Assembly: GCA_020161065.1 (NCBI GenBank)
Contig: JAIUPH010000039.1
Location: 1 to 64,000 of the forward strand
DNA from: Pseudomonadota bacterium
Lineage (GTDB): Bacteria; Pseudomonadota; Gammaproteobacteria; Burkholderiales; Burkholderiaceae_C
Direction: 5' to 3'
DNA length: 64,000 nucleotides
The position numbers were made by a program, and so were the translations under genes. The notes under the pieces are model-generated. The model did no database searches. It was not told the DNA's origin and worked only from the letters and a program-made list of their open reading frames with translations. Shown one piece after another: positions 29,437 through 54,330 of this stretch (the stretch's first letter is position 1; the number at the start of each line of letters is the position of its first letter).

Positions 29437-29520
29437 ACCCCCCCGAAGCGCCTTCGGCGCCTCCCCCCGAGGGGACGCCGCCAGCGGACCGGCAGAGCCG
29501 GATCCGCGGCGGCCGCTTGG
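29437..29520. repeat. GC-rich palindromic intergenic repeat, copy 1
   Basis: It contains a small hairpin AGCGCC-TTC-GGCGCC, the block CCCCCGAGGGGAC (29464-29476) and a near-palindrome GCGGACCGGC/GCCGGATCCGC (29484-29507). The CCCCCGAGGGGAC block recurs, inverted, in the element inside the ABC ATPase gene (38909-38921). Such mosaics are common between genes in Burkholderiales. Here it lies between the ABC permease and the FAD oxidase genes. Confidence 0.65.
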
Positions 29521-37538: not shown

Positions 37539-38593
37539 CGCCGGATCCGGTACTGCGTCAGCAGCGTCGCCACCAGCATGCCGATCAGCGCGATGGCGAC
37601 GATCACGTCGGCGATGTAGGTCGGCACCGCGACGGCGCGGCTCATGCTGTCGGCGCCCACCAGCATGCCGGCGACGAAGACGGCGGCCGCCACCACGGCC
37701 AGCGGGTTGAGCATCGCCAGCATGGCGATCACCACGCCGCTCATGCCGTAGCCGGGGCTCATGTCCAGCGTCACGTAGCCGGTGCGGCCGGCCACCTCCA
37801 CCGCGCCGGCCAGCCCGGCCAGCGCGCCCGACAGCAGCGCCACCTTGACGGCGGTGGCCGCCACCGGCATGCCGGCAAAGGCCGCGGCGCGCGCGCCCGA
37901 GCCGACGGCGCGGATCTCGAAGCCCAGCGTCGTGAAGCGCAGCAGCGCCCACAGCGCCGCGCTCAAGGCCAGCGCCGCCAGCAGCCCCGTGTGCACGCGG
38001 CTGCGCGGCACCAGCTTGTCGAGCTGCAGGCTGTCCTGCAGCGCCACGCTTTGCGGCCAGCCCATCGCGGTGGGGTCCTTCATCGGCCCGTCGAGCAGCG
38101 CCGAGACGGCCAGCAGCACGATGAAATTGAGCAGCAGCGTGGTGACGACCTCGTCGACGCCGAAGCGGCTTTTCAGCAGCGCCGGGCCCAGCAGCAGCAG
38201 CGCGCCGGCGGCCATCGCGGCGCCGATCATCAGCGCGAACAGCAGCGGCGCGGGCGCCGCGAAGCCGCTGCCGCCGTGCAGCCCGCCGACCGCCACCGCG
38301 GCGATGGCGCCGGCGTAGAGCTGGCCCTCGATGCCGATGTTGTAGAGCCGCGCGCGAAAGGCCAGCGCCGCCGACAGGCCGGTCAGGATCAGCGGCGTGG
38401 CGCGCGTCAGCGTCTCGGTCAGCGCGAAGCGCGAGCCGAAGCCGCCTTCGATCAGCAGCGCATAGGCGCGGCCCACCGGCGCGCCGGCCCAGGCCACCAG
38501 CAGCGAGCTGAGCGCCAGCGTCACCGCCACGGCGGCCAGCGGCGCCGCCAGCAGCGCCAGGCGCGACGGGCGGTCGCGGCGCTCAAGCCGCAT
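37535..38593 (-). CDS. BMP-type ABC importer permease (YufP/NupB class)
   Basis: A 352-residue inner-membrane protein with eight or more hydrophobic helices. The motif RARLYNIGIEGQLYAGA near residue 80 and VGSGARAAAFAGMPVAATAV are the hallmarks of YufP-type subunits. With the next permease it forms the heterodimeric channel of the importer. Its start overlaps the end of the ATPase gene by 11 nt. Confidence 0.92.
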   Translation of the reverse strand: MRLERRDRPSRLALLAAPLAAVAVTLALSSLLVAWAGAPVGRAYALLIEGGFGSRFALTETLTRATPLILTGLSAALAFRARLYNIGIEGQLYAGAIAAVAVGGLHGGSGFAAPAPLLFALMIGAAMAAGALLLLGPALLKSRFGVDEVVTTLLLNFIVLLAVSALLDGPMKDPTAMGWPQSVALQDSLQLDKLVPRSRVHTGLLAALALSAALWALLRFTTLGFEIRAVGSGARAAAFAGMPVAATAVKVALLSGALAGLAGAVEVAGRTGYVTLDMSPGYGMSGVVIAMLAMLNPLAVVAAAVFVAGMLVGADSMSRAVAVPTYIADVIVAIALIGMLVATLLTQYRIRR

Positions 38594-40229
38594 GCCGTGG
38601 CTCCGCTGGCGCTGCCGTCCCGGCCATCGCCAGCCCGATCTCGGCCAGCGTCCACGCGTCGCGCGGCCGCGCCGCCGTCAGCCGGCCCTGGTGCATCACC
38701 GCGATGCGGTCGGCCAGCGCGAAGATCTCGTCGAGGTCTTCGCTGATCAGCAGCAGCGCCCTGCCGGCGGCGCAGGCGTCCAGCAACTGCTGGTGCACGT
38801 AGGCCACGGCGCCGATGTCAAGGCCCCAGGTGGGCTGGTTGGCGACGATCAGGCGCGGCGGTGTGTCGCCCGCCGGCCCGAGCGCCGGGCCGCCCCAAGC
38901 CGGGCCGGGTCCCCTCGGGGGACCGGCCGCGGTACTCCGCGGCCGAGGGGCCGACATCAACGCGCGCCCCAGAATCAACTTCTGCATGTTGCCGCCGGAG
39001 AGGCCGCGGGTGACCGTGTCGACGCCGCCGCCTTCGGTACCGCGCACGTCGAAGCGCTGCACGATCTGCGCCGCATGCGCGCGCGCGACGCGGCGCTTGA
39101 TCAGCCCGAAGCGCGCGAAGGCCGGCGCCGCATAACGCTCCAGCAGCGCGTTCTCCCACAGCGGCAGGTCGCCGACCACGCCGACGGCCTGGCGGTCTTC
39201 GGGGATGCGCGCCACGCCGGCGGCCACCCACTCGCGCGGCCGCGCCGGCAGCGGCCGGCCGTCGAGCTGCAGCGTGCCGCCGTCGAGCGCACGCTCGCCG
39301 CTCAGCACTTCGGCCAGCGCCTGCTGGCCGTTGCCGGCCACGCCGGCGATGGCCAGCACCTCGCCGGCGCGCAAGCTCAAGGCCACGCCGTCGAGCAGCG
39401 GCCGCGCGCCGTCGCCGCGCAGCACGGCGCCCTGCAGTTGCAGCACGACGTCACCCGCCGCGCGGCGCTGCTTGACGGGCGGCGCCACGCGGCGGCCGAC
39501 CATCGCTTCGGCGATCAACGCCTTGTCGGCGCCGGCGGCCGGCAGCACGCCGACCAGGCGGCCGCCGCGCAGCACGGCGATGCGGTGGGACACCCGCAGT
39601 ACCTCGTCGAGCTTGTGGCTGATGAAGATCACCGCCAACCCGGCGGCCACCATCTGGCCGAGCGTGTCGAACAGGCTGGCGCTTTCCTGCGGCGTCAGCA
39701 CCGCGGTCGGCTCGTCGAGGATGAGGATGCGCGCGCCCTGCTTGCGGCCGAACGAGACCAGCGCCTTGAGGATCTCCACGCGCTGGCGCTCGCCCACCGA
39801 GAGCGCGGCGACGCGCGCCTCCGGGTCCACCGCCAGCCCGAAGCGCGCGGCCGTTTGCAGCAGCGCGGCGCGCGCCTCGCGCCGGCGCGAGCGCGGCTGC
39901 CACAGCGGCTCGGTGCCGAGCATCACATTGTCCAGTACGCTCAGGTTGTCGGCCAGCGTGAAGTGCTGGTGCACCATGCCGATGCCGGCGGCCAGCGCGG
40001 CCGCGGGCTGGCCGGGCGGCAGCGGCCGGCCGTCGACCTCGATGCGGCCGGCGTCGGCCACGTAGTGCCCGAACAGGATGGACACCAGCGTGCTCTTGCC
40101 GGCGCCGTTCTCGCCCAGCAAGGCCAGCACCTCGCCGCGTTCGAGGTCCAGCGAGATGCCGTCGTTGGCCAGCAGCGCGCCGAAGCGCTTGGCTATGCCT
40201 TGCAGCCGCAGCAGCGGCGCGCTCGTCAC
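38583..40229 (-). CDS. BMP-type ABC importer ATPase (double NBD) with in-frame palindromic insertion
   Basis: A 548-residue protein with two nucleotide-binding domains. NBD1 has GENGAGKSTLVSILFG, LSVGERQRVEILKAL and ILILDEPTAVLTPQE. NBD2 lacks a true Walker A (GVAGNGQQALAEVLSG), as is normal here, and has LSGGNMQKLILGRAL and RLIVANQPTWGLDIGA. Between those two NBD2 motifs lie 30 extra residues (429-458), rich in Pro, Gly, Ala and Arg and not found at this place in relatives. They are encoded by a palindromic repeat. Relatives are about 510-520 residues long. Whether the ATPase still works is unknown; the frame is kept. Confidence 0.9.
   Translation of the reverse strand: MTSAPLLRLQGIAKRFGALLANDGISLDLERGEVLALLGENGAGKSTLVSILFGHYVADAGRIEVDGRPLPPGQPAAALAAGIGMVHQHFTLADNLSVLDNVMLGTEPLWQPRSRRREARAALLQTAARFGLAVDPEARVAALSVGERQRVEILKALVSFGRKQGARILILDEPTAVLTPQESASLFDTLGQMVAAGLAVIFISHKLDEVLRVSHRIAVLRGGRLVGVLPAAGADKALIAEAMVGRRVAPPVKQRRAAGDVVLQLQGAVLRGDGARPLLDGVALSLRAGEVLAIAGVAGNGQQALAEVLSGERALDGGTLQLDGRPLPARPREWVAAGVARIPEDRQAVGVVGDLPLWENALLERYAAPAFARFGLIKRRVARAHAAQIVQRFDVRGTEGGGVDTVTRGLSGGNMQKLILGRALMSAPRPRSTAAGPPRGPGPAWGGPALGPAGDTPPRLIVANQPTWGLDIGAVAYVHQQLLDACAAGRALLLISEDLDEIFALADRIAVMHQGRLTAARPRDAWTLAEIGLAMAGTAAPAEPRHAA
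38856..38945 (-). repeat. 90 bp palindromic element inserted in frame in the ABC ATPase gene
   Basis: Exactly 30 codons sit between ...GRALMSAP and RLIVANQ. The DNA holds a perfect inverted repeat CGGCCGCGG/CCGCGGCCG (38924-38932, 38937-38945) and a near-palindrome at 38903-38928. It shares GTCCCCTCGGGGG (38909-38921) inverted with the repeat at 29.46 kb, and GGGGGACCGGCC (38917-38928) with the hairpin at 54.30 kb. It has no stop codon in the coding frame. It resembles the coding palindromic elements described in Rickettsia in principle only. Confidence 0.7.
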
Positions 40230-53333: not shown

Positions 53334-54239
53334 ATGCAAGACGGCATATCCCCCGAGCGCTTCGACTGGACCCTGGTGCGCAGCTTCCTGGCGGTGCTGG
53401 ACGCCGGCAGCCTGCTCGGCGCGGCGCGCAAGCTGGGCGCCCAGCAGCCGACGCTGGGGCGGCACGTGGCGCAGCTGGAAGCGCAGCTCGGCGCGCCGCT
53501 GTTCGAGCGCACCGGGCGCGGCGTGACGCCGACGGCGCTCGCGCTGGAGATCGCCGATGCGGCGCGTTCGATGGCGCGCGCCGCCGAGGCGCTGTCGCAA
53601 GGGCTGGCGCAGCGCCGCGCCATCGCCGGCGGCACGGTGCGCATCAGCACCAGCCAGGTGGCCGCGTGCTGGCTGCTGCCGCCGCTGCTGGCGCGGCTGC
53701 AGCAGGACGAGCCGCAGATCCAGGTCGAGCTGGTGGCCTCCAACGCCTTGAGCAACTTGCTGCGGCGCGAGGCCGACATCGCGGTGCGCATGGTGCGGCC
53801 GGTGCAGGCCTCGCTGGTGGCGCGCAAGCTGGGCGAGGTGCCGCTGGTGGCCGCGGCGCACGCCGGCTACCTGGCGCGCGCCGGCACGCCGCGCCAGCCG
53901 GGCGACCTGCTGCGCCACCGGCTGATCGGCTACGACCGCGACGACACGCTGCTGCGCGGCTTCGCGGCGCAGGGGCTGGCCATCACGCCGGCGCAGTTCG
54001 CGCTGCGCACCGACGACCAGGTGGCCTACGGCTGTCTGGTCGCCGCCGGCGCCGGCATCGGCTTCGTCGCGCGCTACAACCTGCCCTACTGGCCCGGCGT
54101 GCAGCCGCTGCTGCCGGCGCTGAAGATTCCGCCGCTGCCGTGCTGGCTGGCGGTGCACCGCGAGATCCGCGGCAACCCGCTGGTGCGCCGCGTCTACGAC
54201 TTCCTGGCCGCGGCGCTGCCGCCCGCGCTCTCAAGTTGA
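53334..54239 (+). CDS. LysR-family transcriptional regulator
   Basis: A 301-residue DNA-binding regulator. The N-terminal winged helix (FDWTLVRSFLAVLDAGSLLGAARKLGAQQPTLGRHVAQLE) is followed by a periplasmic-binding-like effector domain (about residues 95-295). It lies divergently from the NAD-epimerase gene, which it probably controls along with the ABC/amidase operon. The start at 53334 gives the family-length N-terminus. A palindromic repeat follows its stop codon. Confidence 0.93.
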   Translation: MQDGISPERFDWTLVRSFLAVLDAGSLLGAARKLGAQQPTLGRHVAQLEAQLGAPLFERTGRGVTPTALALEIADAARSMARAAEALSQGLAQRRAIAGGTVRISTSQVAACWLLPPLLARLQQDEPQIQVELVASNALSNLLRREADIAVRMVRPVQASLVARKLGEVPLVAAAHAGYLARAGTPRQPGDLLRHRLIGYDRDDTLLRGFAAQGLAITPAQFALRTDDQVAYGCLVAAGAGIGFVARYNLPYWPGVQPLLPALKIPPLPCWLAVHREIRGNPLVRRVYDFLAAALPPALSS

Positions 54240-54263
54240 TCCGGCTCCGCCGGGCAACTTGAT

Positions 54264-54330
54264 CCCCCGCGGGGGGCGGGCCGGTCCCCCGGCCCGGACC
54301 CGGGGGACCGGCCCGCAGCGCCGTAGGGGG
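54264..54330. repeat. GC-rich palindromic intergenic repeat, copy 3
   Basis: A perfect inverted repeat of 17 bp arms (54276-54292 and 54300-54316) with a 7 nt loop, preceded by CCCCCGCGGGGG. It shares GGGGGACCGGCC (54302-54313) with the element inside the ABC ATPase gene. It lies between the convergent LysR and YXWGXW genes and could act as a two-way transcription stop, although no T-run is present. Confidence 0.75.

Follow-up and report, generated by a model that had tools for sequence, protein, structure and literature searches.

A BRE-like palindromic repeat in frame within an ABC ATPase gene and in other conserved proteins of Betaproteobacteria

The ATPase gene and its insert

The stretch of DNA analyzed here (the window, 64,000 nucleotides in full) carries on its reverse strand, at 38583..40229, an open reading frame of 548 amino acids for a two-domain ABC ATPase with an insert in its second nucleotide-binding domain. 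The Pfam scan matched ABC_tran in two stretches of the protein, and a Walker A motif (GENGAGKS) can be recognized by eye in the first domain and a signature motif (LSGGNMQK) in the second. We take the protein to be the ATPase of a BMP/nucleoside importer, and the genes next to it, judged from their translations, presumably form with it an operon of the BMP type. A first-pass annotation, made from the letters of the window, had described a stop-free palindromic repeat at 38856-38945, and the frame is indeed unbroken from 38583 to 40229. The location of the insert stands, but its edges are approximate, as the match to the repeat family covers 38873-38950 and seemingly continues to 38957.

The repeat, found by blastn and by a covariance model termed R1 (E = 6.9e-7, with the window copy among the 26 training copies), occupies 38873..38950 on the forward strand, antisense to the ATPase gene. 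It is palindromic, as had been claimed: on that strand, stem 1 lies at 38873..38908, with arms at 38873-38880 and 38901-38908 and the conserved loop GCCGGGCCGCCCCAAG; a central hairpin with CCCC and GGGG arms, common to the family, lies at 38908..38924; and a third hairpin with a perfect 9-bp stem lies at 38924..38945 (arms 38924-38932 and 38937-38945). The right end, 38945..38957, reads GAGGGG-CCGA-CAT, in which CAT pairs with the Met codon in ..ALM.. on the gene's strand, and the element seems to run up to this CAT at 38955-38957. The left end of the insert (38856..38872, same strand) has an uncertain boundary; by eye it resembles TGTGTC..CCG before some intergenic copies and may be an optional 5' extension of the element. 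The copy itself has a G+C content of 87% within a window of 72.6%, and the RNA fold of the insert stretch gave z = -1.97. Between 38700 and 39100 no Rfam family reached its gathering score, the best match scoring 18.3 bits where 59 were needed.

The ATPase was matched in 17 genomes, in 13 of which, own genome included, the insert site is readable. The loop at this site has 7-18 residues in 11 of the 13 same-genus proteins, against 36 in the window protein and 40 in that of genome G021, and the span from LSGG to GLD is 62 residues in the window ATPase versus 33 in the shortest relatives. Not all relatives run straight on across the site, then: the loop is variable and G021 has the insert. There the same insert occupies the same site (locus L156), 12 nt longer and still in frame, and one stem pair differs from that of the window on both sides (GGTCC..GGACC against GATCC..GGATC). 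Within this genus, which is the scope of the comparison, 2 of 13 proteins have the insert, in line with the view that it is not a common Pro/Gly loop. Outside the loop the ATPase has dN below dS (0.21 and 0.44), and dN lies under dS in three comparisons. A test of five insert-free relatives for loops in register with the end of the element gave a P-value under 0.05 for G022 alone (25 of 31 positions, P = 0.046). In genome G014 a copy (L148) lies at the C terminus of a gene, at that genome's match to the same ATPase (contig C166), so that the same region has been struck at another point in a relative. In the 24 genomes searched outside this family but within the order, nothing matched the window ATPase at E<=1e-100.

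The repeat family and its hosts

A blastn search of the own genome with positions 38840-38965 found 41 places, 18 of which, besides the window copy, match over at least 77 nt with 78-86% identity (best E 6.5e-20). R1 was complemented by a second model, R2, built from 13 copies with other loops; in the own genome R1 found 67 places at E<=10 and R2 101 at E<=1, the two sets overlapping in part. Copies share a layout in which a loop-bearing stem is followed by a central hairpin (CCCC-GGGG) and then by a third one that varies, and the element terminates in GGGG. They can be sorted into types by the loop of the stem: GCCGGGCCGCYCCAAG in types A and B, GATCCGG..CCGG in type C, and GCCCGGCCG..CCGAA in type D. 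Own-genome copies have a mean G+C content of 80% (range 70-91%) and, as cut at approximate ends, a length of 70-83 nt (45 copies). Tandem pairs of the element occur in the own genome (contig C39) and in Bordetella genomosp. 4.

Two further members lie in the window, both called intergenic: one with the loop GATCCGG at 54229..54306 on the forward strand (R2, E = 4.3e-9) and a more diverged one at 29439..29508 on the reverse strand (R2, E = 1.8e-5). Both belong to the R2 training set; R1, which was not built from them, scores them at E = 0.08 and E = 0.23, respectively. The first-pass annotation had related the insert to these places (29464-29476 and 54302-54313), and they do look like distant members under R2, for which they served as training copies. 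The shared blocks of 13 and 12 nt on which it relied carry no weight, in that, of 200 90-mers drawn at random from the window, 94% contain a 13-mer that recurs at another place within it.

Four own-genome copies (L376, L383, L410 and L418) contain an extra hairpin-like piece, CCAGGACCAG..CTGGGACC, within the central hairpin, which gives the impression of an insertion into the element. Identical copies with the same right flank were also seen at two contig ends of the own genome (G000:C26:27-105 and C39:20-190), where the assembly probably broke on account of tandem repeats.

At E<=0.001, R1 found copies in 30 of 61 genomes: the own genome, 28 of the 36 that belong to its genus and one of the 24 that represent other families of the order. 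Copy number within the genus ranges from 0 to 65, the latter in G014. R1 also counted 27 copies in Bordetella genomosp. 4 and 10 in Delftia tsuruhatensis, while two Polaromonas genomes had 29 and 8. An exact pattern scan of named genomes returned at least 119 stretches. The matches listed include Variovorax, Hydrogenophaga, Polaromonas, Rhodoferax, Acidovorax, Delftia, Achromobacter, Bordetella, Pigmentiphaga, Trinickia and others, as well as some Rhodocyclales and MAGs titled only to class or phylum (Proteobacteria/Pseudomonadota); the named carriers among them are Betaproteobacteria.

Placement between genes and inside proteins

We classified 183 copies (103 from the own genome, and 80 from relatives, of which 79 come from nine same-genus genomes and 1 from G056) by their position relative to genes predicted with a codon-usage gene caller trained on the window, a procedure that detects frame-keeping insertions alone and not disrupted genes. 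Outside this classification stand 17 of the 67 R1 places, several of which entered through R2, 20 weaker own-genome R2 places and the copies of relatives beyond those 80. The repeat is mostly intergenic (149 of 183), with 16 copies internal to genes, 14 at a C terminus and 4 at an N terminus, which bears out the proposal that a family living mainly between genes has entered a gene in frame. At two loci with a C-terminal copy, L084 (own genome) and L178 (G025), the copy sits just upstream of a MetW-like start; the L084 gene is presumably MetX-like, and the gene after it starts as we would expect of MetW.

The copies were gathered in a first census of 130 and a second of 53 found by R2 only; counts of flanking repeats, frames and CAT leave out five of the 130 that have no readable core, and counts of orientation relative to genes exclude the 53. 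The first census has 102 intergenic copies; a gene was called on either side of 99, of which 93 sit between genes of the same direction. When the copy is in sense orientation, 4-5 nt separate the element end from the start codon in 31 of 42 cases, so placed that GAGGGG or GGGGG mostly lies 4-5 nt upstream of that codon. Between genes, right ends adjoin CAT far more often than expected by chance (background 7.1%): of 125 copies, 52 have their first CAT after GGGG at offset 4 and 20 have it at offset 3, and CAT occurs at offset 0-5 in 31/40 sense and 36/51 antisense intergenic copies alike, and the preference is therefore independent of translation of that ATG. Among the 53 R2-only copies, 24 have CAT within 8 nt and 29 do not. 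At internal sites it lies within 8 nt in 5 of 15 (P = 0.003), with 5/12 in the first census (P = 0.0009) and 0/3 in the second. Because 10 of 15 internal sites, 29 of 53 R2-only copies and the three identical copies considered below are without it, CAT is a preference, perhaps of only part of the family.

The 16 internal copies occupy 15 sites, in frame and with at least 30 codons of the gene on either side; nine come from the 103 own-genome copies and seven from the 80 of relatives, and seven are sense and nine antisense. Besides the window copy, one lies at the same ATPase site in G021 and 14 at other sites. The 14 proteins at these other sites, all of which matched known families on scanning, are from the own genome GlnE (L075), a hydroxyphenylpyruvate-dioxygenase-like protein (L083), UvrA (L085), NtrB (L086), HypD (L091), an RlmI-like methyltransferase (L392), RecB (L399) and a hydantoinase A/B protein (L409), and from relatives a metallo-hydrolase (L157), an error-prone DNA polymerase (L158), urocanate hydratase (urocanase, L177), Tex (L182), alanine racemase (L183) and a pirin named by Pfam only (L205).

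Eight insert-bearing proteins were aligned to solved structures, and in six of them (urocanase, Tex, pirin, HypD, alanine racemase and RecB) the alignment has a gap at the insert. In the urocanase structure (1uwl) the insert falls between chain residues 164 and 166; the structures of Tex (3bzc) and pirin (6uts) run on without loss; and HypD, alanine racemase and RecB show a net gain of ~25 residues. The remaining two were UvrA, in which residues 136-212 are unaligned, a stretch wider than the insert that we did not count as a clean gap, and the window ATPase, whose alignment covered its first domain only, with the insert region outside. Since frames are intact, flanks are conserved and the ATPase insert is found in a second species, we infer that the inserted peptide is made.

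Nothing about the copies looks adapted to coding, because they are neither stop-poor nor enriched in multiples of three: on average 5.01 of six frames are open versus 5.13 in shuffles (125 copies), and copy lengths show no surplus of multiples of three. A stop-free design under selection was unsupported, with open frames at shuffle level. Three of the 15 internal sites are in the uvrA, recB and error-prone polymerase (dnaE2) genes, against 0.06 expected for repair genes (P ~3e-5), in a test conceived post hoc, after the overlap had been noticed, and with an expectation based on nine genes of approximate length totaling ~23.5 kb.

Mobility, alternatives and comparison with known systems

Three copies of type C agree in every letter over 78 nt, are followed by TGCTCAG and lie in unrelated flanks; the copies have therefore moved, and their identity points to a family that was recently mobile. 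Among the 90 copies that lack the standard A arm, 13 are flanked by direct repeats of at least 7 nt, where 3.4 are expected; 2000 permutations never gave more than 11, and two of the 13 are tandem copies. The window copy belongs to the 90 and is outside the 13, with no flanking direct repeat seen, and among 35 standard A-type copies the excess was not significant (P = 0.087). At three loci (L138, L169 and L079) the flanking repeat doubles as an arm of stem 1, and the copies read in Bordetella genomosp. 4 have T-rich arms, two of them (L358 and L360) lying in T-tracts just after terminator-like hairpins. These few cases hint that one arm of the element reads or copies its target.

Taken as a whole, the observations are very probably best explained by a BRE-type mobile palindrome that landed in frame in the ATPase gene and is translated as a loop. 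Such an element would be small (~75-110 nt) and non-autonomous, with no gene of its own and with three hairpins ending in GGGG, and some enzyme would place it in trans, joining being favored beside CAT and accompanied in part of the family by a short target duplication. As CAT/ATG marks start codons, many copies would settle at gene junctions, where those in sense orientation would bring their purine-rich GGGG end 4-5 nt upstream of the next start codon. A few would hit ATG codons or other sites within genes, and would survive there if the frame is kept, no stop is introduced and the 24-30 added residues fall in a loop that tolerates them. The window copy would have landed in antisense orientation at the Met codon of ..GRALM.., in the part of the second domain that separates the signature helix from the Walker B strand, and the ribosome would read it as a loop rich in Pro, Gly and Ala.

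Among the alternatives, an old palindrome, immobile now, could have been copied through recombination or gene conversion; the ATPase insert would then come down from an ancestor of the genus and have been lost elsewhere. The insert at the same site in G021 and the in-register loop of G022 speak for this account, but the three identical copies at unrelated loci and the range of 0 to 65 copies within the genus speak against it, and we consider it improbable. Shared descent with losses and two separate insertions are both possible for the ATPase insert itself, because the tree of the 13 proteins with the loop removed, in which 7 of 10 inner branches are open, does not join the own genome (G000) and G021; they were united in 0% of 200 bootstrap trees, and a single origin was accordingly unsupported.

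That the insert is a REP mobilized by a RAYT (Y1 tyrosine transposase), as GTAG REPs are, strikes us as quite unlikely. The two resemble each other in size, in their palindromes, in favoring intergenic sites and in having the occasional coding copy, going by the REP features described in PMC3733652, and Y1_Tnp had matches at E<=0.001 in 7 of 14 further genomes, 6 of them over the cut-off. However, no GTAG or CGTC end tag was apparent by eye, and Y1_Tnp is absent from the own genome, the 65-copy G014, G036, G008, G006, G017, Bordetella G061 and Aquincola G067. A RAYT as mobilizer was thus unsupported, and no transposase could be tied to the element.

It is still harder to credit that the inserted RNA is removed or bypassed, as in an intron or by translational bypass, so that the peptide is missing from the protein. 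The hairpins are strong, and the pairing of the 5' flank with an internal arm in stem 1 at L138, L169 and L079 is reminiscent of exon-guide pairing; however, the element is much smaller than known self-splicing introns, intergenic copies would gain nothing, no Rfam family was matched at its cut-off, and a frame that removal would make needless is kept at 15 of 15 sites, though the gene caller is blind to any others. Least credible of all is an ordinary lineage-specific Pro/Gly-rich ATPase loop that looks palindromic in a G+C-rich genome, which the variability of the site in the genus, the G+C content of the window and the modest fold z-score would allow but which is refuted by the 18 long matches elsewhere in the genome and by repeats of this kind at 14 further sites in proteins.

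For the mobile palindrome, the closest described family is BRE (Hot et al. 2011, PMC3110155), reported from Bordetella and Comamonadaceae as G+C-rich elements of 75-91 bp that occur singly and in tandem, mostly between genes and with some copies wholly inside coding sequences. Judged by such features, namely length, tandem arrangement and hosts, the window family fits BRE. Own copies of 70-83 nt as cut and five copies of Bordetella genomosp. 4 of 76-77 nt agree with its length; tandem pairs, 149 intergenic and 16 internal copies agree with its habit; and its hosts Bordetella, Polaromonas, Delftia, Rhodoferax and Acidovorax are all among the scan matches listed. The five Bordetella genomosp. 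4 copies (66-70% G+C) also fall within the range published for BRE in Bordetella (63.7-78.9%, mean 69.0%; PMC3110155), whereas the window copy at 87% lies beyond it, and own-genome copies are richer too. In the BRE account of PMC3110155 the discoverers proposed no function, and its section 14 makes no mention of frame, translation, CAT or start-codon spacing. Within the open-licence literature searched, the frame-keeping of BRE in many conserved proteins and its preference for CAT and start codons appear to be new, and would give BRE an insertion preference and a possible influence on expression through start-codon spacing.

The coding palindromes of Rickettsia (RPE), to which the insert had first been likened, are 105-146 bp long, lie between genes and are also fused in frame to conserved proteins, and one RPE-bearing kinase has been assayed, according to PMC2229807. 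The likeness holds as an analogy, in-frame fusion to conserved proteins being found here too, but not as membership: the named carriers are Betaproteobacteria, the fusions are known here from sequence and likened by description, and features and hosts point to BRE. The in-frame variable segments within bacterial genes described in PMC2884548 are, from that description, different from the window element. The family would thus be a further one, beyond those of Rickettsia and the tagged REPs, to add peptide loops to conserved enzymes, and its 15 natural insertion points, several in proteins with solved relatives, bear on what proteins tolerate.

Going one step further, and more speculatively, BRE could be a target-reading mobile palindrome that joins at CAT, in part of which a stem 1 arm has the target sequence and the opposite arm its reverse complement, either as a guide that chooses the site or as a copy made on insertion; it would rewrite the ribosome-binding site of the next gene and add translated loops, repeatedly in DNA-repair proteins that unrelated REPs decorate as well. 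We hold this joint reading to be doubtful, if less so than any of the alternatives above. The REPs in question are built of units 20-40 bp long that bear a GTAG or CGTC tag, RAYT genes going with the former, and have intragenic copies in several species, over half of them dimers or groups encoding 20-30 residues; PMC3733652 regards the Bordetella repeats as REP-like sequences without conserved terminal motifs. The ends of the window family, judged by eye, differ from these, with GGGG..CAT on one side and a variable stem arm on the other, and the own genome (G000) and G014 have no Y1_Tnp. Yet UvrA, RecB and the error-prone polymerase carry window-family copies, and uvrA, recB and dnaE2 are among the genes named in 2013 as bearing these other REPs (PMC3733652), an overlap that turns the choice between simple tolerance and a link to DNA repair into a testable question.
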